64,000 bases of DNA from Pedobacter frigoris (GTDB taxonomy: Bacteria; Bacteroidota; Bacteroidia; Sphingobacteriales; Sphingobacteriaceae): the NCBI RefSeq assembly GCF_005116445.1, contig NZ_SWBQ01000007.1, positions 62,001 through 126,000 of the forward strand, given 5' to 3'. Below the pieces are notes generated by a model. The model was not told the DNA's origin and made no database searches. It saw nothing but the letters and a program-made list of their open reading frames with translations. The translations under genes and the position numbers were made by a program. This document shows, in pieces, positions 15,594 through 61,753 of the stretch (position 1 is the first letter of the stretch; each line of letters starts with the position of its first letter).

Positions 15594-15604
15594 GATTATC
15601 AGGG

Positions 15605-35079: not shown

Positions 35080-35475
35080 TCACCACTCTTGTTCATTGGG
35101 TCTGTTCATTCGACCAAAATCTTCACTTCTGGTGGTTTGTAAAAGACGTTTATAATCTTCCAATAGTGCTATGTATTTTTCCATCCAGTAATATATCGAT
35201 TCCTGAGAAATATGCTGATGGCCTCCTCGCGTATTTAAATCGTTTTCTGCAAGCTTAATTCCTGAATTATAAAACTCTTCCTCAAATTCTTTTGAAAAAT
35301 CGTAGTTAATTACCTGGCCGATGGCACAAATTACATCCAGGTGCAATTTTTTTTGTTGAAACCAATTATACAATGTTCTTCTGTTTACCTTCATCCGCCT
35401 TGATAATTCGCTGATGTTAATGTTTTGACGACGAACCGCATGTTCAACTATTTCTCCAGCATTGATTACTTCCAT
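35080..35475 (-). CDS. Small HTH (XRE-like) DNA-binding protein
   Basis: 131 residues. The N-terminal half is a helix-turn-helix (about 5-55) with SELSRRMKVNRRTLYNWFQQ as the turn and recognition helix, followed by KLHLDVICAIGQVINYDFSK. The C-terminal half is helical (YYWMEKYIALLEDYKRLLQT) and may mediate dimerisation. Similar short regulators with a Fis/XRE-type HTH are frequent in Sphingobacteriaceae. Single gene, sharing a terminator with the M16 gene. Target unknown. Confidence 0.85.
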   Translation of the reverse strand: MEVINAGEIVEHAVRRQNINISELSRRMKVNRRTLYNWFQQKKLHLDVICAIGQVINYDFSKEFEEEFYNSGIKLAENDLNTRGGHQHISQESIYYWMEKYIALLEDYKRLLQTTRSEDFGRMNRPNEQEW

Positions 35476-35670: not shown

Positions 35671-36777
35671 TTATATAGAATAAACAATCAGACCACCAAG
35701 ATCTCCTGCTTCAGTATACCATTGTCTGATAATGCACTTAAGCACCCGATTGTCCGCAACCCCATGAATATAGTATTCACCGCCACAAAGGGTAATACCA
35801 CCATTGAGATATTTGGTTCTAACCTTTTCCATATCATCTGCCGTACCTGGAAAAAAATTAAAAATGCTTTGCCCGATTAATTCAACATTTGTAAACCTAA
35901 AATCAAAAGCCCATTGCTTTGAGACAACCAAATAATTCATATGTTTGTCTAGCATAGCAACAGCCAGTGGAAACTGCGTTATTAGAATTTTATTCTTTTC
36001 ATTGATGTCCTTAGCAAAATCAGAATTAAACTTTTCTACTGTACGGTCATTAATATACCTCTTAAAACAAGAAGTAAAATTTGCCGGATTAGAAAATCCC
36101 AGCATCATGGAAATTTGCTTTTTACTACACCCTGTTTTCTCAATATACTGTTCAGCAAATTCCATTTGAAGTTTGCGATAATACAAATAAGGACTTGTAT
36201 GAAACGCGTGCTTAAAGTCACGCATCAATTTTGAAACAGATATGAAGTGCAAATCAGCTAATTGTTCGATGGACGGGAAATTCGATAAAATTTGAGATTT
36301 TAGATATCCTGCAACCTCATAAATCTTATTATTTTGAATGATCATGTTCTGAACACTCTTGGATTCACCATTCAAATATGGAATTCTCAACTCCGTATCT
36401 TGGTTCTGCGCTGTGAACTGCTTAAAGTTTGTAATATGAGCAAAAAAACCAACTACTTGACCATCCTCTATATCCGGATAATAAGTAGCTATGATACTGT
36501 ATCGCTCACCAGATTGCAAGTAAATTTCTGATTCATAGTTTTGTGAATGACCATTTAAAACACTTTTGATATATGGATAATGCAGGTCATAGGCTATGCC
36601 TAACAGCGTTTTCAGGTCTGTTTTCCCTATTAGTTCTTCAGAAGGCTTGTCGATTAGTTTGAAGAATTCTTTATTTGCAAACCTGCAAATTAAATTCTTA
36701 TCCCAATAAGATAGCAAGTTAACCTTATCGGTTTCTAGTACACTTGAAAACATATTAAATCTGGATGCCATTTTCAA
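35671..36777 (-). CDS. PAS-AraC HTH-PAS sensor/regulator
   Basis: A 368-residue cytoplasmic regulator. An N-terminal PAS domain (about 20-125: LLSYWDKNLICRFANKEFFK, LIGKTDLKTLLG, GQVVGFFAHITNFKQF) is followed by an AraC-type double HTH (about 165-245: SIEQLADLHFISVSKLMRDF, QISMMLGFSNPANFTSCFKR), then a second PAS-like domain (about 265-368: AVAMLDKHMNYLVVSKQWAF, ELIGQSIFNFFPG, LGGLIVYSI). AraC proteins usually end with their HTH, so the middle position is unusual. No transmembrane segment, so the signal is cytoplasmic. Its target could be the adjacent polysaccharide cluster, but nothing in the sequence shows this. Confidence 0.88.
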   Translation of the reverse strand: MKMASRFNMFSSVLETDKVNLLSYWDKNLICRFANKEFFKLIDKPSEELIGKTDLKTLLGIAYDLHYPYIKSVLNGHSQNYESEIYLQSGERYSIIATYYPDIEDGQVVGFFAHITNFKQFTAQNQDTELRIPYLNGESKSVQNMIIQNNKIYEVAGYLKSQILSNFPSIEQLADLHFISVSKLMRDFKHAFHTSPYLYYRKLQMEFAEQYIEKTGCSKKQISMMLGFSNPANFTSCFKRYINDRTVEKFNSDFAKDINEKNKILITQFPLAVAMLDKHMNYLVVSKQWAFDFRFTNVELIGQSIFNFFPGTADDMEKVRTKYLNGGITLCGGEYYIHGVADNRVLKCIIRQWYTEAGDLGGLIVYSI

Positions 36778-36916: not shown

Positions 36917-38821
36917 TCAGCACACGACATCTAATTCATTATAATGAGAATTATTGCTTACATAATCGGGAATAATCTCCTTCATTTTCTTAACTACAGC
37001 TCTTTCATCACTTACGCAGTTGATGGCCAATAGTTCCTCTATTAACCGATGCACATACACATAGGGATAGTATATTACCTTGGATATTTTAATTTTCTCA
37101 TTATAAGTTGGGACGACGAGTTCTGTTTGATTTAATAGCTCTTCATAAAGTTTTTCGCCAGGCCTTAAACCTGTAAATGCAATCTTTATATCCGTATGTG
37201 GCGTAAAACCGGCCAACTTAATCATGTTCAGCGCAAGATCAACTATTTTAACTGGCTCTCCCATATCGAAAATAAAGATCTCCCCCCCTTTGCCCATAAT
37301 CGATGCTTCCAGCACTAATTGCACAGCCTCCGGTATCGTCATGAAGTACCGTGTGATTTCAGGGTGCGTTACCGTAACCGGACCTCCACTTTCTATTTGA
37401 GATTTAAATCTGGGCACCACCGAGCCATTAGAGCCGAGAACATTACCGAATCGAGTTGTAATGAATATTGTATGATTTACAAAATCTGTTTGATAATTGT
37501 GCAAAGCTTGAATATACATTTCTGCAATTCTTTTAGATGCGCCCATCACGTTGGTGGGCCTCACAGCCTTATCCGTTGATATCATCACAAATTTCTCCAC
37601 ATTGCACTCAATAGAAAGATCTGCGAGATGCTTTGTTCCTAACACATTTGTAAAAACTGCTTCAGAAGGATTATTTTCCATCATGGGCACGTGCTTAAGC
37701 GCCGCAGCATGAAAAACAACCTGGGGTCTATAAGTTTCAAAAAGACTTTTTAAGCGATCGTAATTTCTAATATTAGCCATGAATACTTTACATTGAACAG
37801 AAGGGAAATGATCTTCTACTTCTAATTGCATTTCATGCAGGGGGCTTTCTGCCTGGTCACATAAAACGACTAACTCAGGGTTGCATTTTAGCACTTGCCT
37901 TACAATCTCAGAACCGATAGAACCAGCAGCTCCTGTTACCAATATTCTTTTCCCTCTAAGTTCACTGAGGATATTTTCTGAATCAAGCAATATAGGTTCT
38001 CTCTGCAGCAGATCTTCTATTTTAAGATCTGGAAGCTGGCTCAATCTCAATTTGCCTTTTAACCAGTGATTGGAGGCTGGAACAGAAATTACACGAATTC
38101 CGCACTCCAGACATTTTTCTATTGCTTTTTTTCTCCCCTCTATATCCAGACAATCTTCCATTACAATCATTTTTTCAACTGAGCACTTTGATTTGAGCAA
38201 CGGAATAGACGATGAGTGATATACTTTTTTCTGTTCAATATGTTTATTGATCCGGTCTCTGTTGTCATCAATAAAGCCAAGAATGTTAAAATTTCTTTCA
38301 GGAGATGAGTCCAACCCTTGCTTTATGAGCAAAGAAGCCGCATCTGCACCATAGATCAACAACACTTCCTTAGTATTATTTTGAAGTTCCTCCAACTGAT
38401 GAAATAATAATTTCACTCCAATCCTCAAAACAATTAATATAGTTGCAGAAATAAAAAAGTTAATGACCAGCATAGCAGCGAACCAGCGCCAACCAAGCCC
38501 CAGATAAGAACTGGCTCCAAAAAATGTAACCACGCCAAATAAAGCATCGGCCAGCAACACAGCTTTAAATACCCTAAACACGTCCTCTATATTGGAATAT
38601 CTGATTATTCCTGTATGGATACGCATAGCAATGAATACCAGCATTGTAACCAAATTGTATGCAAAAAGATATAGCAATAAATCACTGTCAAAAAACCAAT
38701 CATATTTAGCATTGTTAACAATCATTAGGGACATCACAAGAGCAAAAGTCACTATTAACTGATCAATTAATAGGATGAGCCATCTTGAATAGACTTTTTT
38801 ACAAAAAAGAATCTGTTTCAT
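36917..38821 (-). CDS. FlaA1/CapD-type UDP-sugar 4,6-dehydratase (membrane-bound)
   Basis: 634 residues. Four N-terminal membrane helices (about 14-135) and a CoA-binding-like region (KEVLLIYGADAASLLI) precede a short-chain dehydrogenase domain with the NAD motif LVTGAAGSIGSEIVRQ. The catalytic area reads STDKAVRPTNVMGASKR, where Met replaces the usual Tyr of YxxxK, a normal feature of inverting or non-inverting UDP-GlcNAc 4,6-dehydratases such as PglF, WbpM and CapD. It makes the 4-keto-6-deoxy precursor for deoxy-aminosugars such as bacillosamine, QuiNAc or FucNAc. Last gene of the polysaccharide cluster, 26 bases after a FemAB-like gene. Confidence 0.94.
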   Translation of the reverse strand: MKQILFCKKVYSRWLILLIDQLIVTFALVMSLMIVNNAKYDWFFDSDLLLYLFAYNLVTMLVFIAMRIHTGIIRYSNIEDVFRVFKAVLLADALFGVVTFFGASSYLGLGWRWFAAMLVINFFISATILIVLRIGVKLLFHQLEELQNNTKEVLLIYGADAASLLIKQGLDSSPERNFNILGFIDDNRDRINKHIEQKKVYHSSSIPLLKSKCSVEKMIVMEDCLDIEGRKKAIEKCLECGIRVISVPASNHWLKGKLRLSQLPDLKIEDLLQREPILLDSENILSELRGKRILVTGAAGSIGSEIVRQVLKCNPELVVLCDQAESPLHEMQLEVEDHFPSVQCKVFMANIRNYDRLKSLFETYRPQVVFHAAALKHVPMMENNPSEAVFTNVLGTKHLADLSIECNVEKFVMISTDKAVRPTNVMGASKRIAEMYIQALHNYQTDFVNHTIFITTRFGNVLGSNGSVVPRFKSQIESGGPVTVTHPEITRYFMTIPEAVQLVLEASIMGKGGEIFIFDMGEPVKIVDLALNMIKLAGFTPHTDIKIAFTGLRPGEKLYEELLNQTELVVPTYNEKIKISKVIYYPYVYVHRLIEELLAINCVSDERAVVKKMKEIIPDYVSNNSHYNELDVVC

Positions 38822-38847: not shown

Positions 38848-39891
38848 TTATACTTTTTGAGGCTGACTACGGTATAAGGGAAAAAAATCTATAGTTGATT
38901 CTTTGTCAATTCCAGTCTCGGATAAAATAGCATTGTATCTATCCCGGCTAACAATAAAGCGCCAGCTTTGGTAATTAAATGTTAAATGAGAAAAACTCTT
39001 TTTCCATTCATAAAGGGAATCTTCTTTAAAACTCAGTCCTCCACCAAGATTGTAATACTTCATTCCAAGTTCACGTCCTAAAAGGGTAATCTCATCAATC
39101 AGAAGTTTAGCGGGAGAATCTGAAAGATATTCTTTCCTTGTACCTAGCAAATGCGCCTGTATAATTTGATTAGTTAATACGATAATTGCCCCACAAATCG
39201 GGTATCCAGTATCATCATATACAAATAACAACCTTGCATCATACTCATCTGATTTAAGCAGTTGGGTAAAATACTCTTCATTAAACATATAATAATCTGA
39301 TGCGCCCAGGCGAATCATATTTGAGGTATAAATAGCTAAAAATGTTTGAATATCTTCTGAAGCCGACGCCTCTTTGACATAATACCCCCTCTTTCTCAAT
39401 TGTTTGATTTTTCTATGCGCCCTTTCCTGATACTGCTTTCTCTGTTCATCAAGTGAAATCGTAAGATCCAAAGCAACCACTTTTCCATTTTCTACTACGC
39501 CCTCAAAATTTTCCATCAATGGTTCCTGGTTAAAGAAGGGATGTAGTCTTGAAAAAACAGATACTATTCCTTGTTCCTGAAAAAATTCAAGCAACGCATT
39601 CTTGAAATCTAAGATGAATTCTAAGCTCAACGCCGCAAATTCCCGGCTGGATATAGGCCCGCTGTATCCATATACGGAACTCATGTCAAAGAAATCAGAG
39701 CAGGGAATTCTTCTTTTCAATAATGGGAATGCGATAAAATCCAATCCTTTCTCATACACGAACAATAATGCATCTCCTTCTGCGGAATGTAAGACGTGAT
39801 AGGTCCAGGTATGGTAAAAATCAAAATTTACCGACCTTTCGACATACGCCATCCATGTGTCTTTTTGAGTTAAAGTAATTACATGTTTCAT
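38848..39891 (-). CDS. FemAB/GNAT-like (Acetyltransf_6) transferase, copy 1
   Basis: 347 residues with the double GNAT-like layout of FemAB proteins: an N-terminal half with FDFYHTWTYHVLHSAEGDAL, FIAFPLLKRRIP and VYGYSGPIS, a middle HRKIKQLRKRGYYVKEASAS, and a C-terminal half with YPICGAIIVLTNQIIQAHLL, YLSDSPAKLLIDEITLLGRE and YYNLGGGLSFKEDSLYEWKK. FemAB proteins transfer aminoacyl groups from aminoacyl-tRNA; polysaccharide-locus relatives probably transfer aminoacyl or acyl groups to sugars. A paralogue lies at 42220. It overlaps the upstream GNAT gene by 4 bases. Exact chemistry unknown. Confidence 0.85.
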   Translation of the reverse strand: MKHVITLTQKDTWMAYVERSVNFDFYHTWTYHVLHSAEGDALLFVYEKGLDFIAFPLLKRRIPCSDFFDMSSVYGYSGPISSREFAALSLEFILDFKNALLEFFQEQGIVSVFSRLHPFFNQEPLMENFEGVVENGKVVALDLTISLDEQRKQYQERAHRKIKQLRKRGYYVKEASASEDIQTFLAIYTSNMIRLGASDYYMFNEEYFTQLLKSDEYDARLLFVYDDTGYPICGAIIVLTNQIIQAHLLGTRKEYLSDSPAKLLIDEITLLGRELGMKYYNLGGGLSFKEDSLYEWKKSFSHLTFNYQSWRFIVSRDRYNAILSETGIDKESTIDFFPLYRSQPQKV

Positions 39892-40397
39892 ACTAAATAA
39901 TTTGAGTGGTTATTTAAATAATTTTCTCTTATAACACGCATCACGTTGCGCTGATTTTCAATCTCTACTTCTACAAATCCATGCTTTTTATAAATGGCTA
40001 TTGCCGCAAGATTTTCTTTATCTACCTGAAGAATTACGTGTTCTAAGCCCAATTCGAGGAAGGCAAAGTCCATCATCAATCGCGTTGCCTCTTTCCCTAT
40101 TCCTCTACCCCAATATTCAGATTCACCTATGAAAAGATGAAATTCCGCACTTCTCCTTGTGATTTTAAGTAACTGAACATTTCCAATGTACTTTCCCGTT
40201 TCAATTAAGCAAATCGCAAAACGTTTTTGATCTGTTTTTTTAAGCACATCAGTTATCCACTTCTGTTCAATATCTTTTGTAATCGGCACATCAGGCACAA
40301 AACCGGTAAACTTCCAGATTTCAGGATTATTGCGCCACTGACATGACACATTTGCATCTTCCAATACAAGCGGCCTTAGAAATACAGTTGAACTCAT
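39888..40397 (-). CDS. GNAT N-acetyltransferase (RimJ/RimL-like)
   Basis: 169-residue single-domain acyl-CoA transferase: LRPLVLEDANVSCQWRNNPE at the start, then YIGNVQLLKITRRSAEFHLF, the acetyl-CoA loop GESEYWGRGIGKEATRLMMD and HVILQVDKENLAAIAIYKKH, the standard GNAT order. It overlaps the upstream DegT-like gene and the downstream FemAB-like gene by 4 bases each, so translation is coupled. In this setting it most likely N-acylates an amino sugar, as PglD- or WecD-type enzymes do. Confidence 0.9.
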   Translation of the reverse strand: MSSTVFLRPLVLEDANVSCQWRNNPEIWKFTGFVPDVPITKDIEQKWITDVLKKTDQKRFAICLIETGKYIGNVQLLKITRRSAEFHLFIGESEYWGRGIGKEATRLMMDFAFLELGLEHVILQVDKENLAAIAIYKKHGFVEVEIENQRNVMRVIRENYLNNHSNYLV

Positions 40398-41368
40398 AAT
40401 AATTGTTTTAATACATTAAGGATTCGTTTCATATCTGCATGCGTATACCGATGATCTATTGGAAGTGCGAGCAAATGTGTAGTAAGATAATTTTCATACA
40501 TTTTCTTTGTAGTCCAGTCTAATACATTAGGCCAATAAGTAGCTACATAAATTCTCTTCTCTAACAATTTCTTTCTGACCAGAGTAGATGATATCAATAA
40601 TGGATACGCCATGGGTCCATTTACAGATGATGCATCAAATGCGTAATCATTATAATTCACCAGAAAATCGTGGAGATACATAAAATTCGAGTTTCTGCGA
40701 TACTTACATTCTTTATAATCAATACCTGATAAAATCCGATGGGAAAGCGCGGACATTTTCTTGATAGGATTATTCGAAAGCACAATATTATTTTCAATAT
40801 AGTCCTGGTAACCGTTTTCAATACCAACATCTATATTTTTTATCAGGTGAGAAAAACGATCACAGGACAAATCTCTTTCCAGCTTTAATCGTACCAGACT
40901 GTCTGTATTTAAATACGCTCCATCCGGAACACCAAAAAACTTCCTGCATGAGTAAAATGTATCGAGCCCATCAACAGGCTCAGAAAAAAAAGCTTGAGAA
41001 TTATCTACAATTAAATTTTTGAACTGTTTACTCAGCCTCAAAATAGTATCTTGTTTAAGCCCAAAATAGTTGGTATACAAAAAACATTCTGTAGGCCCAA
41101 CTTCAAAATCAAGCACCGGATCCATTTTTTCGTTAATTGTATAGAATTGATATTGAATACCAAGTTTTCTTAAGGGTTCCAATAAAACCTCGCAGGTAAA
41201 ATAAGGCAGGTAGATCGACGTATAACGTTTCACTTTTAAAATGTATTCAAATGCATTACGTCCAGTATTTAGCTTTAATAATAAAGGATAATAATCTTGA
41301 CCTTTTTCCAATTGCAATTCCAGGTAACCTCCTAGTGGCTTCATTTTACTTGAGTAAATTTGTTTCAT
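40394..41368 (-). CDS. Divergent DegT/DnrJ-like PLP aminotransferase
   Basis: 324 residues, shorter than the usual 370-400. The fold-type I pattern is visible: NTGRNAFEYILKV, TSIYLPYFTCEVLLEPLRKL, FLYTNYFGLKQDTI, LIVDNSQAFFSE with the conserved Asp-x-x-x-Ala-like turn, and FYSCRKFFGVPDGAYLN, in which Lys143 aligns with the PLP lysine of SFYPxKxLG in DegT proteins. The C-terminal YPLLISSTLVRKKLLEKRIY and LLALPIDHRYTHADMKRIL also fit. It may transaminate a keto-sugar or have lost activity. It lies 5 bases after the PhyH gene and overlaps the GNAT gene by 4. Confidence 0.72.
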   Translation of the reverse strand: MKQIYSSKMKPLGGYLELQLEKGQDYYPLLLKLNTGRNAFEYILKVKRYTSIYLPYFTCEVLLEPLRKLGIQYQFYTINEKMDPVLDFEVGPTECFLYTNYFGLKQDTILRLSKQFKNLIVDNSQAFFSEPVDGLDTFYSCRKFFGVPDGAYLNTDSLVRLKLERDLSCDRFSHLIKNIDVGIENGYQDYIENNIVLSNNPIKKMSALSHRILSGIDYKECKYRRNSNFMYLHDFLVNYNDYAFDASSVNGPMAYPLLISSTLVRKKLLEKRIYVATYWPNVLDWTTKKMYENYLTTHLLALPIDHRYTHADMKRILNVLKQLL

Positions 41369-41373
41369 GTCTA

Positions 41374-42180
41374 CTATCCTTGTCCAGGTTGATACATTCT
41401 TCTTTCAACAGGCTGATAATATTCCTCGAGATCAGCCGGAACCCTCGAATTGTAACCAAGAACCTGCCTTAAATCTTTACTTAAGCCCTCTCCAAATTCG
41501 TAACCCAACATGCGTGGATAGTCTAGTTGCTGCTTAAAAAACGGCTTGGTAAAAGCCATTGTAAGTGCCCTTCTCGGGAAATCTGTATTATTTTTACCCG
41601 CAGCATGCCATAGGTTGGCATCAAACAAAACAACACTTCCCTTTTTTGCTAATGCACGATCTGCGTGCCCATAGAAATAGACATTATCGGGTTTCACATC
41701 TCCTAAATGGGACTTAGAAAGCATATATGTTGCTCCGTTGTCCAAGGTGAAATCATCCAGGATAACCATCATCTGAACCATCAATTTTAAATCACCCGTA
41801 AAACTTCTAATATCTCTATGAACATTCTGAACATACGGTTGCGCATTTTTCAAATTAATTACTGCGCCCATTGAATTGAGAATGTAGTTTCCTCCTAAGA
41901 AATGCTTCATTTGTTCATCGCAACATTGCTGTTCCAGGAACCTCAGTGAAAAATTCTCAGACTCTACAAGATGATGGAGTGTTCCATCCATATTGCCAGC
42001 AATCCCATTCGCTACCTGAATCTGTCTCCTAACGTTGTATGCGGACACCAAATCATGGTTAATTTGTTCAACAATATCAGCCGGCAGCGCATTTTCATAA
42101 ATTATCCAACCGTATTCCCGCATGGTTTGGTCAAACAAAACCAAATCTGATTTAGAATAATCAAATTTATTTTTCATCAC
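41374..42180 (-). CDS. Phytanoyl-CoA dioxygenase (PhyH)-family oxygenase
   Basis: A 268-residue Fe(II)/2-oxoglutarate dioxygenase-like protein. The iron triad is visible: His121 and Asp123 in VQNVHRDIRSF, and His192 in VLFDANLWHAAGKNN. Further family marks are WIIYENALPADIVEQI near the start, LDDFTLDNGATYMLSKSH and ALTMAFTKPFF. PhyH enzymes hydroxylate diverse small molecules; in polysaccharide loci the substrate may be an acyl chain, amino acid or sugar. It sits between the FemAB-like copy 2 gene and the divergent DegT gene, separated by 39 and 5 bases. Confidence 0.9.
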   Translation of the reverse strand: MMKNKFDYSKSDLVLFDQTMREYGWIIYENALPADIVEQINHDLVSAYNVRRQIQVANGIAGNMDGTLHHLVESENFSLRFLEQQCCDEQMKHFLGGNYILNSMGAVINLKNAQPYVQNVHRDIRSFTGDLKLMVQMMVILDDFTLDNGATYMLSKSHLGDVKPDNVYFYGHADRALAKKGSVVLFDANLWHAAGKNNTDFPRRALTMAFTKPFFKQQLDYPRMLGYEFGEGLSKDLRQVLGYNSRVPADLEEYYQPVERRMYQPGQG

Positions 42181-42219
42181 TTAATTTATTAGATTTTTAA
42201 AATCTGCTTAAGATTAAAG

Positions 42220-43275
42220 CTATACAGATTTGATAACCTCTTTAGCTGTGCTTCTTCGATAAGCAGGGAAGAAATTCGGAGAAGAATCTACGCCACCTTT
42301 AACTTGAAAAGTAAGTTCATTATAAACGTGTTGATTATTAACGTAACACCAAATGCAATCCTGCTTTCTCTGTTCCGAAAAATAGCTTTTAAACTGAAAT
42401 AAACTATCTTCTTTTCCACCAACCCCGCCACCTAAATGAAAGATTCCCGCATCGGTTGATCTACCCATACAACTGATTTCATCAGTAAGCAGTTTACTCG
42501 GAGAATCTCCTAGATATTCAGTTGCGGTCGCAGAGAGGTGATTTCTTATGATATGCTCAGATAAGAAAATAATCGCTCCAGATGTGATTTCAATTCCTTT
42601 ATAGATAAGAATTAATTTCGCAGAAAATTCAGTGGAATTAAGTAGTCCTTCAAAATAATCTTCCGTGAAATAATAATTGGAAGAAGCATGCAGCCTGCTC
42701 ATATTCTCATTGTACATGTCGGTAAATATTCCGATTTCTGTTTTATCGGAAGCTTCCTTGATCACCAAGCCTGCATGACGTAAATGCCTGATCTGACGAG
42801 CCAATCTGGGATGATAATTTGCAATTTGTTCATCTACAGACCGCTTAAGGTCCATGTAAATTGTATTTCCATTATCCCGAACTCCTCCAATAGGTCCTAA
42901 AAGGACTTGTTGGTTGAGGAAAGGATGTAGACGTGAAAAAACACATACACACTTTTCTTCGTTCATAAAGTCAATAAATTCTGACTTAAACCTTTCAACG
43001 GTTAATGCATCAAGCTGTGAAAGGTCTACATTAGAAACAGGTCCTGCATAACCGTATACGGAAGTTAGGTCAAAATAATTTGTATCTGGAATGCCTCTTT
43101 TGATCAGCGGTAGCGCGACAAAAACATGTGCCAACTCAAATACAAAGAGTAACGGTTCTCCTTCTGTATTTAAAGAATGGTAATGCCAGGTGTGGTAAGC
43201 TTCGTACATAAGTGCTCTTTCGATATAACGAATCCACTCCATTTTATTCCTAACTATGCGACTGCGATAAGACAT
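42220..43275 (-). CDS. FemAB/GNAT-like (Acetyltransf_6) transferase, copy 2
   Basis: 351 residues, clearly paralogous to the protein at 38848: shared blocks include YEAYHTWHYHSLNTEGEPLL, FVALPLIKRGIP, VYGYAGPVS, VFSRLHPFLNQQ, LGDSPSKLLTDEISCMGRST and HLGGGVGGKEDSLFQFKSYF. Both keep the LGGG-x-x-x-KEDSL motif in the C-terminal half, so both are probably active but on different groups. First gene of the five-gene block 38848-43275, 25 bases after a glycosyltransferase gene. I infer an aminoacyl or acyl decoration of the polysaccharide. Confidence 0.85.
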   Translation of the reverse strand: MSYRSRIVRNKMEWIRYIERALMYEAYHTWHYHSLNTEGEPLLFVFELAHVFVALPLIKRGIPDTNYFDLTSVYGYAGPVSNVDLSQLDALTVERFKSEFIDFMNEEKCVCVFSRLHPFLNQQVLLGPIGGVRDNGNTIYMDLKRSVDEQIANYHPRLARQIRHLRHAGLVIKEASDKTEIGIFTDMYNENMSRLHASSNYYFTEDYFEGLLNSTEFSAKLILIYKGIEITSGAIIFLSEHIIRNHLSATATEYLGDSPSKLLTDEISCMGRSTDAGIFHLGGGVGGKEDSLFQFKSYFSEQRKQDCIWCYVNNQHVYNELTFQVKGGVDSSPNFFPAYRRSTAKEVIKSV

Positions 43276-43300: not shown

Positions 43301-44452
43301 CTATATACTTCCCTCCAGTATTTGAACCATTTGCTTGTTTACTTTATTCACATCAAATTTTTCTTCAGCGTACTTTCTGCCATTTACACCAAACCGGATG
43401 ATATCGTCAACGTGTCTGACATAGTATTCCATTTTGGCGGTTAATTCGTTCACATTCTTAATTGACACCAAAAAACCATTGATGGCCTTTATTGAAGGAT
43501 TAACAGTCTCTTTGCAGCCAACTGAATTACTCGTTATTACGGCCCTGCCCATTGCCATGCCTTCCAGAATACACCTTGGCACACCCTCGCCATAATAAGA
43601 AGGCAGCACTACAATCGATGAATCGGTAATGTAAGGTCTAACGTCCTGCACTAGCCCCAAATATTCTATAGTCCCATCTGATTTTATTTTGGAATATAAT
43701 TCATTATTAATAGCATCGATATTGTCATCATAAGGACCAATTAATCTAAATCTAACCTCTGGAAACTTCTGCTTTAAGATTTTGGCAGACTCATAATACT
43801 CTTTAATCCCCTTAGCATTAATTAAACGGGCGATCATCAAAAAGCTAATTACTTTCAGATCAGGCTTAGAGTAATCATAATGGGAAAGATCAACACCAGA
43901 TCCATTAACAACATATGCCCTGTTTTTAGCTGTGAGGATTTTTGCTGAAACCAGTGTATGATAGTCATCTTTATTCTGAAAAATCACTCTCAGATTATTG
44001 CTTGCTTTCAAACTAAATTTCAGAAGTATCCTTGTTATTTTTTGAATTAAAGTTCTCTTTTTATCAAGATCCAAAAAGTTATAACCCAACCCGGTCAGCA
44101 TAGGTGTAATACATTTTATGCCACAAAATTTCGCTACAATAACACCGTAGATTACAGGTTTAAAAGTATAGGGAAAAAATATGTCGGGCTGGATCTTCGA
44201 TAATAAACTACGAAGGTTTGAAATGTATTTTAAATCTGATAGGATAGAAACATTGCTGGGCTTAAGTTCATTTTCATAAACAGTAACACCCATCTCGTCT
44301 AATTTATGCCTTATCCTTGATTGATCAATTTTCGGAGTATAAATACTCACATCATGATTTCTAATCAGCTCTTCAATTAGTTTGCCCCGGAAGTCGAGCA
44401 GTGAGCGCGAGGAATCACAGGAGATCAGGATCTTCTTTCTATTAATTTCCAT
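43301..44452 (-). CDS. GT4-family glycosyltransferase
   Basis: 383-residue retaining glycosyltransferase of GT-B fold. N-terminal domain: KILISCDSSRSLLDFRGKLI and PDIFFPYTFKPVIYGVIVAK. C-terminal donor domain: ISFLMIARLINAKGIKEYYE, RFRLIGPYDDNIDAINNELY and the E-x7-E region VLPSYYGEGVPRCILEGMAM. Similar to WbpT/CapM-type enzymes using UDP-sugars with a lipid-linked acceptor at the cytoplasmic membrane face. It lies between the pectate lyase and FemAB-like genes. Donor and linkage unknown. Confidence 0.93.
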   Translation of the reverse strand: MEINRKKILISCDSSRSLLDFRGKLIEELIRNHDVSIYTPKIDQSRIRHKLDEMGVTVYENELKPSNVSILSDLKYISNLRSLLSKIQPDIFFPYTFKPVIYGVIVAKFCGIKCITPMLTGLGYNFLDLDKKRTLIQKITRILLKFSLKASNNLRVIFQNKDDYHTLVSAKILTAKNRAYVVNGSGVDLSHYDYSKPDLKVISFLMIARLINAKGIKEYYESAKILKQKFPEVRFRLIGPYDDNIDAINNELYSKIKSDGTIEYLGLVQDVRPYITDSSIVVLPSYYGEGVPRCILEGMAMGRAVITSNSVGCKETVNPSIKAINGFLVSIKNVNELTAKMEYYVRHVDDIIRFGVNGRKYAEEKFDVNKVNKQMVQILEGSI

Positions 44453-44568: not shown

Positions 44569-45972
44569 TTATATGCTCAGTGTAGCACCCGCACCTGCTG
44601 ATACAACAGCTGGCACATTAGCCGCAGGAATTAGCACAGATTTATACTCATATGATGGTACCCAATCTGATGCCGATGTTGATATTCTGTTTGCTCCAGA
44701 ACCTTTATAAATATTTGTATTCGCTCCGCTAACATAGCCAGGCTTAGCATTGTATTCTGTATAGATAGGAACTGACTGGTTTTCAAAGTAGTTGTTATCA
44801 GTACGAACCGTAGCTCCCATTGTTACTCCAATACCATAACCGCTTCCATTAGATAGGTAGTTGTTAAAGCAATGCATATAACCAAATCTGGTACTTGGCT
44901 GACGTTCTGAAACATTGTAAAAATAATTATTATAAACAGTAGTACGCAGGTGACCAGTATCATCTGTATTTTGATCCCCAAAACCGATTAACATTGGAAT
45001 GTGACTATCATGTAGTCTATTCCATGATAGAGAAATATAATCTGCTCTTTTCCCTACATCCAACAATCCGTCATAATAATCCCAACCATGATTTCGGTCA
45101 GAAGAAAGATCACAATGGTCAACCCAAATATGATGTGCTCCTTCTTTTATAATGATGTTAGAATAAGTAACTACATTTTTAATAGTCATATTCTGGATAA
45201 TGATATTACTTGTGCCGTAAATCATCAGACTAACACCCTCCATGCTCGAACCACTAAGTCCCAATATCGTTTTATTAGATTTTACGTTGATGAAGCCCGT
45301 ACCGGTAATTTTTCCTGATACTTTTATAATCAGTGGAGAATTTGATTCAGTAGCTGATTTCAGTTGCGCAAGTGTCGTCGCAATTATAGTATTTCCACCC
45401 AGACCACCTGTTGTCTTCCCGTCTACAGAGGCATACCCTATAATTGCAGAACTGGATGACGATGGTGGAGTCACAGGTACAACAGGATCCGCAACCTGAG
45501 GGGGTTTTACAACACTAGAAGTTCCATCTATAGTGTAGGTATAGGTTCTTCCGTTTGTCCTTGGATCACTATTATCTGATGTTGAAAAATACAAACTACC
45601 AGACCAGTGACTAAATCGACCTTTACCCAAAGTCCTTATATCCGAATGCAATGAATGGGCAGGACCAATTTCAACTCCATTTTCAAATATTTTAACTGTT
45701 GATGCTGTTGGCTGCGATTGGGTATCACTTGAAGTCCCCAAATCAGCGTAGACTTTATAAGAAAATCCTTCATCTTTTGCTGCTTTAGTTACTGTCAAAG
45801 TCCGCGATGATCCAGACGCAGCAACTGCACTAATTTCAGATTCAATTGCATTGGAAGAGCTGTTAATTTTTGCCACATCCGAATCTTTTTTGCATTTACT
45901 AAAAGTTAATAAAACCAGAAGTAACAGAAGGCTCATGGGCAAGTGATTTGTTAATTTGTTTTTTCTTTCCAT
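44569..45972 (-). CDS. PL1-family pectate lyase lipoprotein within the EPS cluster
   Basis: A 467-residue exported lipoprotein (leader ends LLTFSKC, Cys at about 27) with a Ser/Thr-rich linker and a disulfide-poor N-terminal sandwich (about 55-165), then a right-handed beta-helix of polysaccharide lyase family 1 (about 170-467). Diagnostic motifs are HHIWVDHCDLSSDRNHGWDY, LSWNRLHDSHIPMLIG, HLRTTVYNNYF with the catalytic Arg region, and RQPSTRFGYMHCFNNYL (RxPxxR). PL1 cleaves alpha-1,4-linked galacturonan. Inside a polysaccharide gene cluster beside a UDP-glucuronate 4-epimerase it may trim the cell's own polymer. A 451-base spacer upstream suggests its own promoter. Confidence 0.94.
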   Translation of the reverse strand: MERKNKLTNHLPMSLLLLLVLLTFSKCKKDSDVAKINSSSNAIESEISAVAASGSSRTLTVTKAAKDEGFSYKVYADLGTSSDTQSQPTASTVKIFENGVEIGPAHSLHSDIRTLGKGRFSHWSGSLYFSTSDNSDPRTNGRTYTYTIDGTSSVVKPPQVADPVVPVTPPSSSSSAIIGYASVDGKTTGGLGGNTIIATTLAQLKSATESNSPLIIKVSGKITGTGFINVKSNKTILGLSGSSMEGVSLMIYGTSNIIIQNMTIKNVVTYSNIIIKEGAHHIWVDHCDLSSDRNHGWDYYDGLLDVGKRADYISLSWNRLHDSHIPMLIGFGDQNTDDTGHLRTTVYNNYFYNVSERQPSTRFGYMHCFNNYLSNGSGYGIGVTMGATVRTDNNYFENQSVPIYTEYNAKPGYVSGANTNIYKGSGANRISTSASDWVPSYEYKSVLIPAANVPAVVSAGAGATLSI

Positions 45973-49409: not shown

Positions 49410-50480
49410 TTAACTGGTAAGCTGCTCAATCAATTGCATCCATTCATTCATTACTTTCTCTTCGCCAAAACTCTTTTCTATATGCATTTTGCCTTTCGCA
49501 CCCAATTTATTTCTCTCAAGAGGATGCATATCCATTATCTTCAGCATATTTGCAGCCATTGAGTATTCATTTTGCCGCTCACATAGAAAACCACACCCAG
49601 CCTGTTGTACCAACTCACGGTTGCCGTCAATATCTGTCACCACGACTGGCCGACCGTAAGCCATTGCTTCGAGGATGGCGTTAGGCATTCCTTCAGAAAA
49701 AGAAGAAAGTACAAATGCATCTGATCGCTCTAAATAATAAGATGCATTCGGTTTAAACCCCAGAATACGTACATGCTCACTAATCCCCATTTCTTTTATA
49801 ATTTCATAAGGCCATATTTCACTATTTAATTCGCCTATAATATCTAATCTGAACTTTCTTTCTTTAATCAAGGTAACGGCTTTAAATAAAGTGAGATAAT
49901 CTTTATTCCATCTGAAATGTGCAACACACACCCATGTAAACAGATTCTCTTCTTCTCGCACTTCATTTGAGCAGATATTGATAGAAATGCCATTATTAAT
50001 CACCAATCCATTCTTTAATCCAAAATTCTGAACCTCAAAATTATTTTTAGATGCTACAGAATTATAAACTACTGCATCATCAAGTCCTGAAGTAAGTTTA
50101 AAAAGCAAATACCACTTTTTAGGAATTACAGATATTCTTATCGTAGAAATCAGTCGAAACTTAAGTCGTAATTTAAGAAGCCGGGCAAATATGATAGCTA
50201 TAAACATAAATGCGACAATAACATCTGGCCGAAATATTTTAACAGCATTCCACAACATGCTCAAATTAGAAAATGTATTTCTACCCCATTTTCCTAAAAA
50301 AACAAGGCTTATACCCGATTTCTCAAGCACACCATTAAATTCATCAATGGGCTTAAGAGAAATAATCAGTACTTTATGACCATTATCCCTTAAGAAAAGC
50401 GCAACTTTAAGAAGTTGAGTTTCCGCACCACCCTTACTCATAGATGGTGTCATCAAAATCACTCGTTTACCGGATTTCAT
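49410..50480 (-). CDS. GT4-family glycosyltransferase
   Basis: 356 residues, GT-B fold. Starts KRVILMTPSMSKGGAETQLL (glycine-rich acceptor loop with AET). The donor domain has FTWVCVAHFRWNKDYLTLFK, LDIIGELNSEIWPYEIIKEM, VRILGFKPNASYYLERSDAF and the SSFSEGMPNAILEAMAYGRP region with the E-x7-E pair. Family GT4 (WcaL/PimB-like). Lies 2 bases from the ATP-grasp gene and 12 bases from asnB. Sugar specificity unknown. Confidence 0.93.
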   Translation of the reverse strand: MKSGKRVILMTPSMSKGGAETQLLKVALFLRDNGHKVLIISLKPIDEFNGVLEKSGISLVFLGKWGRNTFSNLSMLWNAVKIFRPDVIVAFMFIAIIFARLLKLRLKFRLISTIRISVIPKKWYLLFKLTSGLDDAVVYNSVASKNNFEVQNFGLKNGLVINNGISINICSNEVREEENLFTWVCVAHFRWNKDYLTLFKAVTLIKERKFRLDIIGELNSEIWPYEIIKEMGISEHVRILGFKPNASYYLERSDAFVLSSFSEGMPNAILEAMAYGRPVVVTDIDGNRELVQQAGCGFLCERQNEYSMAANMLKIMDMHPLERNKLGAKGKMHIEKSFGEEKVMNEWMQLIEQLTS

Positions 50481-50482
50481 AT

Positions 50483-51541
50483 TTACGCTGTTATCAAGTC
50501 TTGCAGATACGCCTTAACCTGCTTTTGTTTGATTTTAAAAACAACATCTACATATTTCGCATCCCAAGAGTTAAACAAACTAAAATGTTGTTTATAAAAT
50601 GCATATGCCTTTTTTGTAATCTTCATCTTCGGATTAGGCTGGTAAAAAGGACTTACTTCCAAATAAATTGGCTCTGTATTTAAGTCGTCATTCTGCCAGG
50701 TGATATCAAAAGCACCTGTTGTCAATTTTAAAGATTTAAAAGTTTGGATGATATGCTGTCTCCATTGCTCGGGAAAGAAATCAAAATCAACCTTGCTTCC
50801 GTAGCTTGTCGACGTAGGTTTCCACTCTTCCGATTGATTTATCCTCCAGTAATGCAGTACAATATCATCTTTAACCAAAATCACCCTTAAATCTTTTCGC
50901 ATATTGATCAATTCCTGTACAATGATGTTCTTATTTTCTCTCACGAATTTCTCATTAGAAATCAGATCAGCCAGATCGGACCAGGAAGAAATTTTATACA
51001 ACCCTTCTGAGGAACACGAATGCTCTGCTTTAATTAAAAAGGGAAAATTAATTCTTGTATTCAAAAGTGCTTCAAAATCATTAAAAATCGTTGTTTTTGG
51101 TTCATTTACCTTGGCATCATTAAAAGCGCCATGCATATATGATTTATTCTCCCAAAAAATAGTCTCACTATGCTTAGGAAAAACGGCATTACCCTGAAAT
51201 TCAAGTTGTTTTGTAACGTGCTGCAGAATGTCGGTATAGTCATCAAACCTGTAAACATTATAATGGCTGCTTATTGAAAAGAAAATCTTCTTATGATGAT
51301 ACTTCCCAATTGATTTTCCATATACAATTTTAAAATTTTTACCTTCTTCCAAAAGGCCGGCTAAAGTGGCCATATCCCAGATAAAGGCATCTGACCCAAA
51401 ATACTTTAATGACCCACCTGGGATCCAAAGTATAATAACAGCATTTGAATCATAGCTACTCCACAATTTAAGCCATTTCACCGTCACAATAATTCTAAAG
51501 ACACGTGCTAACCTTTTAAGTACTTTTGTCATTTCCTTCAT
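50483..51541 (-). CDS. ATP-grasp-like ligase
   Basis: 352 residues resembling ATP-grasp carboxylate-amine or carboxylate-thiol ligases. FPFLIKAEHSCSSEGLYKIS is the strand-glycine loop that grips ATP, IIVQELINMRKDLRVILVKD is the adenine-hinge stretch (QEl...DlRvi), and IYLEVSPFYQPNP stands for the metal-binding E-x-N (here E-x-S). The central region VDFDFFPEQWRQHIIQTFKS and TGAFDITWQND also fit. It likely activates a carboxyl group and joins it to an amine. It overlaps the HAD gene upstream by 26 bases. Substrates unknown. Confidence 0.75.
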   Translation of the reverse strand: MKEMTKVLKRLARVFRIIVTVKWLKLWSSYDSNAVIILWIPGGSLKYFGSDAFIWDMATLAGLLEEGKNFKIVYGKSIGKYHHKKIFFSISSHYNVYRFDDYTDILQHVTKQLEFQGNAVFPKHSETIFWENKSYMHGAFNDAKVNEPKTTIFNDFEALLNTRINFPFLIKAEHSCSSEGLYKISSWSDLADLISNEKFVRENKNIIVQELINMRKDLRVILVKDDIVLHYWRINQSEEWKPTSTSYGSKVDFDFFPEQWRQHIIQTFKSLKLTTGAFDITWQNDDLNTEPIYLEVSPFYQPNPKMKITKKAYAFYKQHFSLFNSWDAKYVDVVFKIKQKQVKAYLQDLITA

Positions 51542-52082
51542 AAGCTGAGTTAATTAATTCTATTTCATCAATTCCTAAATATTCTATTGGCAATTCCTTT
51601 ACATCTAAAATCAACTCACCATATAACTTGACCGACCCGTACTCATGGCTATGACTTAAATCGTCTATATAAACCACGTTAATACTTCTATAGAGCAACT
51701 CACTGATGTACTCTAATTTATCATCAGGATTTGCTACAAGAATTACCTGATCTCCGGGCAGACCGTTACTTTTTAACCAGTCACATGTAGTCCGAAAATT
51801 AAAATAGCTTCTGGCCGAAATAAAAATTACCTTTTCGTTGTTTCTAATTTTATCAATGATGAATTTTCGCATACCCAGGAATATAGAAAGTGAGCGATAC
51901 CTGTGATTTTCACCGCGGTAAACATAATCTTTCAATGATGGCCAGGTATGAGCAAGTGTATTGTCAATATCAATCAGATAAATTCTGGAGCTTTTTGACA
52001 CACCTTTGATCAGCTTTCTAAACTTCCTTTTAAAGTACAAGCCGAATACCGAGAATAAAATGACTTTAACCCGTTGTTTCAT
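51516..52082 (-). CDS. HAD-superfamily phosphatase-like protein
   Basis: 188 residues. HAD motif I is LIDIDNTLAHTWPSL with Asp38 and Asp40 as nucleophile and acid. Motif II is VIFISARSYFNFRTTCDWLK, a lysine lies in NPDDKLEY, and motif IV is NVVYIDDLSHSHEYG. This resembles small 'swivelling phosphatase' or nucleotidase HADs. The N-terminal 30 residues are basic and partly hydrophobic (VILFSVFGLYFKRKFRKLIK). It overlaps both neighbours (17 bases upstream, 26 downstream), so it is translationally coupled with the aminotransferase and ATP-grasp genes and probably acts in the same pathway. Confidence 0.85.
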   Translation of the reverse strand: MKQRVKVILFSVFGLYFKRKFRKLIKGVSKSSRIYLIDIDNTLAHTWPSLKDYVYRGENHRYRSLSIFLGMRKFIIDKIRNNEKVIFISARSYFNFRTTCDWLKSNGLPGDQVILVANPDDKLEYISELLYRSINVVYIDDLSHSHEYGSVKLYGELILDVKELPIEYLGIDEIELINSAYEGNDKST

Positions 52083-53271
52083 TGACCAGATCCAAAATCA
52101 CATTCATTTCAATACAAGCCTTTAGGCTTTGAATGATATAATCATTCTCCATCTTAGATCGGGATGCCAGTCGGATGAACTGCCCTTTCAACCCTATTTT
52201 GTCATCGCAGGTTCTAATGTAAATGCCATAGGTAATTAATAGTTTAGATACAAAATCAGTAGATTTAATTCCATCCATCAATTCTATCAGTACAAAATTA
52301 GCCATGCTTGGATATACTTTTATACCTGGAAGTTGTTTTAATTCATGAATGAATTCAAGCGTCTCAACGATATATTTGATTCTTACTTTATCATACTTTA
52401 CAGCAAAATCTTTCTGAGTATATAATCTGAAAAAGTACTCTGCAAAACCATTTGAGTTCCACAAGTACCCACTATCCAATAAAGATTTCACATAAGACTC
52501 TTTCATAATTCCATAACCCGCTCTTATTCCTGCAATTCCAAAGTCTTTAGACATACTTTTGAGGACAATAAGGTTTGGGTATTTTTCTACCAAATGAGCC
52601 AAAGACACCAATTGATAGTTTTCCGTTTCATAAGCAAAATGAATAAAACTCTCATCAATGATCACATTATCTACAAAAGAAAGCTCATCCAATATTCTTT
52701 GTACGTCTTTAATCCTTGTATAAGCCCCGTTTGGATTGTTCGGATTAATTAATACAATCGTATCGGGCCGGTGAAGTTTAACCAGTTCTATATAACTGTC
52801 TACATCAAGGCCATAATCATTATCCTTAGAAAGCTCATTATAAACTACCTCTACCCCCTCTTTTACGTATTCATAGTAAGAAGAAAAAGTAGGAATATTG
52901 ATCATAATTTTTCGACGGGTAAAATTATGTATTACAGCCTGAATGATTTCAATGGCTCCATTTCCTATAAAAATATTTTTTGCATTGATCTGAAGAAACT
53001 CTGCCAGAATCTCAGCTATTACACCATTTTGAGACGGATAGCATTCCAAAAGATCCCTGATTTTACCGCTCTTCAAAATCTCTTCATCAAAATACTCCAG
53101 AAACAGATCAGTAGCATATGGATTAGAAAGAAAACAGGCATCTACTTTAATCTCCACCTCAGGCAGTTTCTGTCTGAATGTGATAATACTTGGAGAGTGT
53201 GAACCAGCCTCATTTTTCAAAATTTCCAGCTTTTTTACAATCTGTAGTTCATCATTAGTAAACTTTATCAT
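52066..53271 (-). CDS. Class I/II PLP aminotransferase (histidinol-phosphate/threonine-phosphate type)
   Basis: 401 residues from the ATG at 53271. An earlier in-frame ATG at 53331 adds a Cys-rich stretch overlapping the neighbour by 77 bases and is unlikely. Fold-type I marks are YPSQNGVIAEILAEFLQI, FIGNGAIEIIQAVIHNF, NPNNPNGAYT, VIIDESFIHFA and the PLP lysine Lys242 in LKSMSKDFGIAGIRAGYGI, followed by FIRLASRSKMENDYII with the substrate-carboxylate Arg. This is the HisC/CobD branch. It overlaps the HAD gene by 17 bases. Likely supplies an amino-phosphate or amino-alcohol substituent, by inference only. Confidence 0.88.
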   Translation of the reverse strand: MIKFTNDELQIVKKLEILKNEAGSHSPSIITFRQKLPEVEIKVDACFLSNPYATDLFLEYFDEEILKSGKIRDLLECYPSQNGVIAEILAEFLQINAKNIFIGNGAIEIIQAVIHNFTRRKIMINIPTFSSYYEYVKEGVEVVYNELSKDNDYGLDVDSYIELVKLHRPDTIVLINPNNPNGAYTRIKDVQRILDELSFVDNVIIDESFIHFAYETENYQLVSLAHLVEKYPNLIVLKSMSKDFGIAGIRAGYGIMKESYVKSLLDSGYLWNSNGFAEYFFRLYTQKDFAVKYDKVRIKYIVETLEFIHELKQLPGIKVYPSMANFVLIELMDGIKSTDFVSKLLITYGIYIRTCDDKIGLKGQFIRLASRSKMENDYIIQSLKACIEMNVILDLVNETTG

Positions 53272-59726: not shown

Positions 59727-60593
59727 TTATAATAAATTCATAATTGTTGTGAGTGCCCCGTTTAACCTAAGATTCCTTATGTCAAAAAGGAAGTACTGAC
59801 GGAGATAAAATTTGAGCAATTCCCTTTTTAAACCGGCTGAATAGGTAAAGTTTTCTACCATCAAATTAAAATCACTTACCATTCTTTTTTTTCTTACTCT
59901 GGAATCAATCATACTCCATACTCCCCCTGTATGTAGCCGATAACAAGCCATTACCTGGGGAAGAACATAGATCTTTTTCCCTGTACTTGCCATTGCATAT
60001 AGTTTCAGCAATGTATCTGAACCGTGCGTTTTAAAATACCAGCCTTGTTTACCTATTTCTTTGACTTCATCAAGGTTGCGCATCATAAGTGAGCAGATCC
60101 GGGTTTCTTCTCTTTTTCCAAGCAAAACATCCCCATAATTAAACTCCAGTGCTTCTGGCTTTTCCTTCAGGTAAATTGTCTCATCCCTATCGTTGATCAC
60201 CTCTGTATGATGACAGCAAATGACATAATCCGGATGGCTCTCCAAAAAGTCAACCTGTTTCTGAAGTTTCAAAGGATCAGTCCAAAAATCATCACCATCA
60301 CACATGGCAATGTATTTCCCCTTTGCTGCTTCCAAAACAGAAAGCTGGTTTTTTATTGCACCTACATTCTGTGAATGACTAACTAACTTAATGACATCAA
60401 TATATTTTGATGCATATTTTTGAATGATTGCTCTTGTCTCATCTGTGGAATGATCTTCTCCGATTATAATTTCATATCTAAAATCTGTATCCTGCATTAA
60501 AAAGCCTTCCAATGCCTGGGAAATATATTTTTGATGATTGTAGGTAATACAACATACGCTCACCAGGATTTCATCTTGTTGTACTTTATTCAT
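59727..60593 (-). CDS. GT2-family glycosyltransferase
   Basis: 288 residues, GT-A fold. ILVSVCCITYNHQKYISQAL, YEIIIGEDHSTDETRAIIQK (ED.S.D nucleotide binding), GKYIAMCDGDDFWTDPLKLQ with the DxD-type D-G-D-D, and HPDYVICCHHTEVI are the usual family-2 sequence. The C-terminal part (MACYRLHTGGVWS) fits this clade, which often adds a deoxy- or amino sugar. Inverting transferase, membrane-associated on the cytosolic side. Lies 11 bases after the DegT gene at 60605. Confidence 0.94.
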   Translation of the reverse strand: MNKVQQDEILVSVCCITYNHQKYISQALEGFLMQDTDFRYEIIIGEDHSTDETRAIIQKYASKYIDVIKLVSHSQNVGAIKNQLSVLEAAKGKYIAMCDGDDFWTDPLKLQKQVDFLESHPDYVICCHHTEVINDRDETIYLKEKPEALEFNYGDVLLGKREETRICSLMMRNLDEVKEIGKQGWYFKTHGSDTLLKLYAMASTGKKIYVLPQVMACYRLHTGGVWSMIDSRVRKKRMVSDFNLMVENFTYSAGLKRELLKFYLRQYFLFDIRNLRLNGALTTIMNLL

Positions 60594-60604
60594 ATTTATT
60601 AGGA

Positions 60605-61753
60605 TTAATAAGCGGTGTCTAACTGTCCGTTCTGTTTCACTGTCAAACTAGATGGTAGCATTTCATTTTGCATATCATAATTCTGAACCCTCAACATGAT
60701 TCTTGTAATCAGATCAAGATCACTGCTTGTTAAGGTATGATACAACGGGAGACAAAGAATTCTCTTTGCAACTGATTCACACACCGGCATAAATGCAGGA
60801 TTTAAAAATGGCAATGCAGAAAGTGCGGGATAGAAATATCGCCGACAATAGATTTTTTCATTTTCAAGCGCTTTCATGCATTTGAGCATGAGCTGCTCAT
60901 CATCAAACAGAACAGGAAAATACGCATAGTTATAATCCAGATCTGCATTAAGCTTTGGATAAGTCGCTTTTAATGTACTCAGGGCTCTCCAGTAATAGAA
61001 TGAAAGCAATCTTCGTTTATCCAATATTTCATCTATCTGTTTCAGATTACATAAACCCATAGCGGCATGAAACTCACAGTTTTTACCATTAATCCCCAAT
61101 TCAGAAAATTCATCTGGCCCATTGTGACCAAAATTTCTCATAGATGCCATTTTCTTTAAAAGTTCGGGGCATTGAGTAAATACAGCACCACCTTCTATTG
61201 TATGAAAAAGTTTTGTTGCGTGAAAACTTGTAGTACTGATATCGCCGTATTCAAAAACAGATTTGTTTTTATATTTAGTACCAAAACAATGTGCCGCATC
61301 ATAAATAACCTTCAAAGAGTACCGCTGTGCTATCCCTTGTATGGCATCAATATCGCAAGGGTTTCCATAAACATGAGTAGCCAATATTGCTGATGTTTGA
61401 GGAGTAATCGCTTCCTCTATCTTTTTAGGATCAATATTAAAGGTCTCCCCGTCAATATCTACAAAAACAGGTTTACAGCCTTCCCAAACTAAACTGTTTG
61501 AAGTAGCTACGAAAGAAAATGGCGTAGTAATTACTTCTCCCTTTAATTCAAGCGCGTTGATAGCAAGCTGAAGTGCCATAGTCCCATTCGAAACATATAA
61601 CAGGTGCTTAATCCCCAGATAATTCTTAAGCTTCAATTCCAGTTCATTGACCAATGGTCCATTATTAGTAAGCCACTGGCGTTCCCATATGCTATTTACA
61701 TAAGATTCAAATTCCTGAATCTTTGGAAGAAAAGGTTTGGTTACAGGTATCAT
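60605..61753 (-). CDS. DegT/DnrJ aminotransferase (VioA/FdtB-like)
   Basis: 382 residues. MIPVTKPFLPKIQEFESYVN, RQWLTNNGPLVNELELKLKN, LYVSNGTMALQLAINALELK, VITTPFSFVATSNSLVWEGC, VIYDAAHCFGTKYKNKSVF and the PLP Lys181 in STTSFHATKLFHTIEGGAVF are all present. This form resembles sugar aminotransferases such as VioA and FdtB acting on dTDP-4-keto-6-deoxy or UDP-3-keto sugars. It overlaps the flippase gene upstream by 4 bases. With the UDP-sugar dehydrogenase at the right edge it could also serve as a WbpE-type 3-amino transferase. The exact substrate is unresolved. Confidence 0.93.
   Translation of the reverse strand: MIPVTKPFLPKIQEFESYVNSIWERQWLTNNGPLVNELELKLKNYLGIKHLLYVSNGTMALQLAINALELKGEVITTPFSFVATSNSLVWEGCKPVFVDIDGETFNIDPKKIEEAITPQTSAILATHVYGNPCDIDAIQGIAQRYSLKVIYDAAHCFGTKYKNKSVFEYGDISTTSFHATKLFHTIEGGAVFTQCPELLKKMASMRNFGHNGPDEFSELGINGKNCEFHAAMGLCNLKQIDEILDKRRLLSFYYWRALSTLKATYPKLNADLDYNYAYFPVLFDDEQLMLKCMKALENEKIYCRRYFYPALSALPFLNPAFMPVCESVAKRILCLPLYHTLTSSDLDLITRIMLRVQNYDMQNEMLPSSLTVKQNGQLDTAY

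Follow-up and report, generated by a model that had tools for sequence, protein, structure and literature searches.

Related systems

Amino acid substituents on the amino sugars of O-antigens and capsules have been seen by nuclear magnetic resonance for decades. To our knowledge, most of the enzymes responsible for their attachment have yet to be assigned. We analyzed a 64-kb stretch of Pedobacter frigoris DNA (the window, to which all coordinates refer). It lies on contig C18 of a 4.69-Mb genome whose nearest named relatives are Pedobacter. The window contains a row of five genes for two FemAB-like paralogues (FemA1 and FemA2), a PhyH oxygenase, a short pyridoxal phosphate (PLP) protein, and a GNAT acetyltransferase (Table 1). 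The set probably attaches an amino acid to an amino sugar of the slime polysaccharide in soil bacteria such as Pedobacter. It supplies a testable class of candidates for such attachment, FemABX-like and possibly tRNA dependent.

The closest described folds are FemX of Weissella and FemA of Staphylococcus aureus. They share with FemA1 and FemA2 a double-GNAT fold, a catalytic lysine, a basic helix, which in FemX is proposed to bind tRNA (PMC12945691), and the lack of an acyl coenzyme A (acyl-CoA) loop. The identity is about 15%, and the window proteins do not match PF02388. The described enzymes serve peptidoglycan, whereas the window genes lie in an exopolysaccharide (EPS) operon. Orf11 of the BD-12 pathway is a FemABX relative that carries out Gly-tRNA-dependent aminoacylation of streptothrisamine (PMC12945691). 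It has the FemABX fold, and its acceptor is an amino-sugar intermediate. Sba18 and Sbb17, streptothrisamine-binding synthases of the streptothricin-type, aminoacyl-tRNA-dependent kind, were matches 2, 3, and 5 of FemA2 in Foldseek. These three proteins belong to Streptomyces antibiotic pathways, whereas the acceptor in the window would be a polymer sugar. HfsK of the Caulobacter holdfast is a GNAT protein modeled on FemX that modifies an EPS adhesin (PMC5362036). Likened by description only, it is the closest FemX-like protein studied so far that has an exopolysaccharide as its target. It is under cyclic di-GMP control, and no PLP or PhyH partners are described for it.

Two further systems resemble the locus in gene content. 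Cupriavidus metallidurans CH34 has the order DegT-WbqC-PLP-PhyH. Its PLP and PhyH proteins are 36% and 43% identical to those of the window and are encoded side by side after a VioA-like DegT. It has WbqC instead of FemA, and a homologue of the window GNAT was not found nearby. The complete O121 O-antigen cluster of Escherichia coli contains DegT-WbqC-GNAT and no PLP, PhyH, or FemA gene. It has in common with the window a VioA-like DegT, a GNAT, AsnB, an epimerase, and an unassigned transfer step. WbqC stands where the window has FemA. The first-pass annotation knew of no named pathway with this content. These two sets, DegT-WbqC with PLP-PhyH or with GNAT, are analogous to it.

FemA proteins

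FemA1 and FemA2 are the only two FemA copies in the genome. They are 42% identical across 339 amino acids (E = 6e-95), and the motifs by which the first-pass annotation had paired them (HTWxYH, VYGY(S/A)GP, and LGGG-x3-KEDSL) occur in both. Their placement among FemAB relatives agrees with the fold, the catalytic lysine, and the basic helix. The AlphaFold2 (AF2) model of FemA2 had a predicted local distance difference test score (pLDDT) of 95.5 and contained two GNAT-like domains in the FemX fold. Its top 11 Foldseek matches were FemX, FemA, and Sba18/Sbb17, with E values of about 1e-13 to 1e-12 and template modeling (TM) scores of about 0.7 for FemX and FemA. A FemA profile matched FemX at E = 5e-5 and aligned F304-K305 of FemX with W/F296-K297. 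K297, the equivalent of FemX K305, was invariant (39/39) and had W or F immediately before it. FemA1 has an F-K pair, as FemX does. Basic residues are densest in the helix of the FemA proteins that aligns with the proposed tRNA-binding helix of FemX.

In Pfam, the FemA proteins matched only PF13480 (Acetyltransf_6), a broad family. The XrtA/PEP-CTERM FemAB model TIGR03019 scored 26.5 bits, below its curated cutoff of 260.35. The proteins are described here as FemABX-like and not as PF02388 members. The acyl-CoA loop was absent from 93 of 93 FemA sequences and present in 55 of 62 neighboring GNATs, as scored with a pattern that replaced a stricter one, which missed most GNATs too. The FemX-like fold, the lysine, the basic helix, and the missing loop together make aminoacyl-tRNA a more likely donor than acyl-CoA, as judged from sequence and model. 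The cluster showed neither a dedicated tRNA gene nor one for an aminoacyl-tRNA synthetase, and the sole tRNA gene of the window is a tRNA-Ala at 15603.

A FemA relative was also seen elsewhere, inside a full PglD-PglC-FemA-DegT-CapD set (locus L088, 5866-11515). Its position suggests that FemABX-like enzymes decorate bacillosamine-type initiating sugars too.

PhyH, PLP protein, and GNAT

The PhyH protein, first read as an iron oxygenase, retains the iron and 2-oxoglutarate ligands of its family. H121-x-D123, H192, and R203, the arginine expected to hold 2-oxoglutarate, were invariant in all 18 aligned members. An Fe(II) halogenase reading was set aside because the aspartate of the H-x-D motif is invariant.

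The PLP protein matched no curated family, and PF01041 gave no hit up to an E value of 1. Single-sequence and profile searches against the PDB gave chance matches only, and the family was therefore settled by fold. The AF2 model (pLDDT 91.4) matched GDP-perosamine synthase and WecE in Foldseek (E = 8e-12, TM 0.64). Profile-profile comparison with DegT proteins gave E = 8e-7 and placed the lysine within one column. K143, the lysine noted at first sight, was invariant together with D122 and Q125 (30/30). The protein thus has a DegT fold with the PLP lysine and aspartate. It goes with every partner type described below, and E. coli O121 has a glycyl group without it. Contexts that include a second, complete DegT argue that the PLP protein may not be a transaminase of nucleotide keto-sugars.

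The GNAT has the CoA loop GRGIG. It matches the PseH model at E = 1e-13, which is below the cutoff of that model.

Distribution of the gene block

The five open reading frames (ORFs) were all found on the minus strand, at the positions and with the short spacing first reported. The GNAT/FemA2 and PLP/GNAT pairs overlap by 4 bases. The gaps are 5 bases between PLP and PhyH, 39 between PhyH and FemA1, 26 between CapD and FemA2, and 25 between FemA1 and the upstream glycosyltransferase (GT).

A search for the set in other genomes had been proposed as a check, and it showed strong co-occurrence. Among 301 genomes of the family, the PLP protein was found in 44, PhyH in 38, and FemA in 52. Each of the 38 PhyH genomes contains FemA, and 36 of them have the PLP protein. 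FemA was present in 40 of the 44 PLP genomes, and the remaining four are of the WbqC type. Fisher tests gave p values of about 1e-34 to 1e-37, with shared ancestry ignored.

Gene neighborhoods were viewed at 40 loci plus 80 named loci. The order is epimerase, pectate lyase, GT, [FemA1], PhyH, PLP, GNAT, FemA2, [FemA], and CapD, with the bracketed genes optional. It was seen in Pedobacter, Mucilaginibacter, Sphingobacterium, Arcticibacter, Desertivirga, and Daejeonella. The five-gene order is far above chance because it recurs in dozens of genomes. FemA was present at 72 of 96 distinct PLP loci. Among these 72 FemA-type loci, PhyH-PLP-GNAT-FemA2 was kept in 64 and all five genes in 26, with GNAT-FemA fusions counted. 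A larger block thus occurs in variants, and the five-gene set is one of them. A GT lies directly upstream in most FemA-type loci, and CapD is part of the block more often than FemA1.

The first-pass annotation had treated the five genes as one module. They do co-occur, but they are not one fixed unit. The FemA1 proteins adjacent to PhyH form one clade (support 100/100), which includes those from isolated islands. Four islands contain GT-FemA1-PhyH alone (L075, L076, L078, and L079). PLP-FemA2 pairs alone were seen at L045/L146, L149, and L151, and several Pedobacter encode GNAT and FemA2 as a single fused protein. The natural units are therefore FemA1-PhyH and PLP-GNAT-FemA2. FemA1-PhyH is one movable pair and PLP(-GNAT)-FemA2 another.

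The genes nearly always sit within EPS-type clusters, and a role in peptidoglycan was set aside on this ground. The placement of the cassette in a polysaccharide operon thus holds, and the operon is a conserved EPS operon of Sphingobacteriaceae. It extends beyond the five genes, with AsnB, an epimerase, a pectate lyase, and a GT upstream and with CapD and a small helix-turn-helix (HTH) protein downstream.

Partner replacement

The partners of the PLP protein differ in other Bacteroidota, where it comes after a VioA-like DegT aminotransferase and either WbqC (PF08889) or an ATP-grasp protein. A GNAT and a glycosyltransferase similar to GT59 often come next. A tree of the PLP proteins places those linked to FemA in a single group (87/97) that is nested among the WbqC-linked ones, and the ATP-grasp label requires at least three changes. 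The window has no WbqC beside DegT and PLP/GNAT and has FemA there instead. The only WbqC that the genome encodes is on another contig.

DegT60 of the window shares 43 to 47% identity with VioA and with the DegT of E. coli O121. All 42 genomes that have the module contain DegT60, versus 4 of 20 that lack it, and for GT59 the counts are 42 of 42 versus 0 of 20. DegT60 adjoins GT59 in 38 of 40 cases. In Pedobacter-type genomes, the pair lies about 18 kb from the module in the same cluster. Gene content and the tree fit a FemA that took the place of WbqC in an older DegT-WbqC-PLP-GNAT-GT set.

Two E. coli serotypes anchor this comparison. In the O121 and O116 structures as cited in a review (PMC3210612, references 147 and 146), 4-amino-4,6-dideoxyglucose (Qui4N in O121) carries an N-acetylglycyl group in O121 and an N-acetyl group in O116. 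The O116-type cluster has VioA and no WbqC. WbqC and GNAT therefore go with the aminoacyl substituent, a correlation across two serotypes. The O121 GNAT is 27% similar to the window GNAT, which is weak, and the two are not clearly orthologous. The O121 WbqC (PF08889) is encoded at 10084-10800 of locus L172. By analogy, it is a good candidate for the glycyl transfer of the O121 antigen. A search by sequence found no solved relative of WbqC.

WbqC, the ATP-grasp ligase, and the FemABX-like proteins may be interchangeable amide formers around a conserved DegT-fold PLP enzyme. They would load amino acids onto the amino sugars of polysaccharides, and the Sphingobacteriaceae version would use aminoacyl-tRNA. 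We hold this broader claim tentatively, at less than an even chance. Partner replacement predicts the same job for WbqC, and the O121/O116 pair makes the prediction directly testable. If the broader claim is true, the translation machinery is linked to surface polysaccharide, and WbqC gains its first function.

Proposed route and alternatives

On balance, the block appears to serve the aminoacyl decoration of a 4-amino-4,6-dideoxy sugar in a Wzx/Wzy exopolysaccharide. We infer the donor, acceptor, order of steps, and product from the computed folds, catalytic residues, gene order, co-occurrence, and partner replacement. RmlA and RmlB, whose genes are present in the genome, would act with the VioA-like DegT60 to make a dTDP-4-amino-4,6-dideoxyhexose, the proposed acceptor. 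Aminoacyl-tRNA is the most likely source of the amino acid that FemA2 would move onto the 4-amine. The GNAT would acetylate the free alpha-amine of the attached amino acid. GT59 would then build the decorated sugar into the repeat unit. FemA1 and PhyH would add or modify another aminoacyl group, this one hydroxylated, either on that sugar or on a different one. The PLP protein would act on the same substituent or sugar. The first-pass annotation had suggested a hydroxylated amino acid or acylamino substituent. A hydroxylated and/or N-acetylated aminoacyl group fits best.

Several points weigh against this reading. PF02388, the FemAB model of Pfam, had no match anywhere in the genome. The members of the cassette are known here from sequence and predicted structure. 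The sugar gene that adjoins the cassette is CapD and not DegT60. The analogy with O121 comes from two serotypes, with a WbqC that lacks an assigned function and a GNAT of weak similarity. The co-occurrence tests take no account of phylogeny. The reaction of the PLP protein has no defined place in the route.

Literature searches on FemAB with Pedobacter EPS, on WbqC, and on PhyH with O-antigen returned nothing relevant, and no published Pedobacter EPS structure was found.

The main rival is a bacillosamine-type sugar made by CapD and the PLP protein, which we regard as unlikely. CapD would form UDP-4-keto-6-deoxy-GlcNAc, the PLP protein would aminate C4, the GNAT would acylate the amine as a PseH-like enzyme, and FemA would have its target at another site of the repeat unit. 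In its favor, the block ends with CapD in most FemA-type loci, the fold of the PLP protein is that of a sugar aminotransferase, the GNAT matches the PseH model, and the Pgl-type set of L088 includes a FemA. However, WbqC and ATP-grasp loci have the PLP protein after a complete DegT, with no CapD homologue within 4.5 kb. The window cluster has two complete DegT aminotransferases besides the PLP protein. CapD may already have a partner because one of these, DegT57, adjoins PGT56. Loci L073 and L074 retain FemA, PhyH, GNAT, and CapD without the PLP protein.

It is less probable still that the FemA proteins are N-acyltransferases that use acyl-CoA or acyl carrier protein to place a hydroxy-acyl group on the sugar. 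Their sole Pfam label would suit such a role. HfsK, modeled on FemX, is proposed to acylate the adhesin it alters (PMC5362036), and hydroxyacyl groups occur on bacillosamine in Bacteroidota O-antigens (PMC3210612). The missing CoA loop, the tRNA-dependent nearest folds, and the retained lysine and basic helix argue against it, as does a conserved block with no acyl-carrier or acyl-synthesis gene. That the genes share a cluster but each serve separate residues and yield no joint product would suit the separate GT-FemA1-PhyH islands and PLP-FemA2 pairs but is very improbable given the GNAT-FemA2 fusions, the adjacent PLP and PhyH genes of Cupriavidus, and the FemA found in every PhyH genome.

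Locus features and neighboring genes

Table 1. Features of the decoration block and associated genes in the window
Feature	Coordinates	Strand	Description
FemA1	42220..43275	-	FemABX-like double-GNAT aminoacyltransferase candidate; PhyH partner; 42% identity to FemA2
PhyH	41374..42180	-	PhyH-family Fe(II)/2-oxoglutarate oxygenase; PF05721, E 3e-24
PLP protein	40394..41368	-	Short divergent DegT-fold PLP protein; fold match, no curated family
GNAT	39888..40397	-	RimJ/PseH-like N-acetyltransferase; PF13302, E 1e-26
FemA2	38848..39891	-	FemABX-like double-GNAT aminoacyltransferase candidate; Foldseek to FemX/FemA
CapD	36917..38821	-	CapD/PglF-like membrane nucleotide-sugar 4,6-dehydratase; PF02719, E 3e-119; downstream end of conserved block
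GT	43301..44452	-	GT4-type glycosyltransferase; PF13692 and PF00534; upstream end of conserved block
DegT60	60605..61753	-	VioA/DesI-like sugar 4-aminotransferase; PF01041, E 5e-93
GT59	59727..60593	-	Family-2 glycosyltransferase; neighbors DegT60
Small HTH protein	35080..35475	-	Conserved downstream of CapD; possible regulator

An ORF with the motif R-R/K-S/T-x-YNWF, corresponding to the small HTH protein, lies at most three ORFs from CapD in 85 of 98 loci. It is possibly an operon-linked regulator. A PAS-AraC-type regulator (35671-36777; the listed ORF starts with TTG) is present in some relatives only.

A putative lipoprotein pectate lyase (44569-45972) lies within the EPS operon beside the uronate-type epimerase and AsnB, and most relatives retain it. 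During export, it may trim a polymer that contains galacturonate.

The stretch from 49410 to 53331 encodes a GT, an ATP-grasp protein (50483-51541), a HAD protein (51516-52082), and a CobD/HisC-like PLP enzyme (52066-53331). From its gene content, it resembles another set for amide-type decoration. Near PLP-PhyH in Cupriavidus, there is likewise a fusion of ATP-grasp and HAD (L175, 10522-11811).

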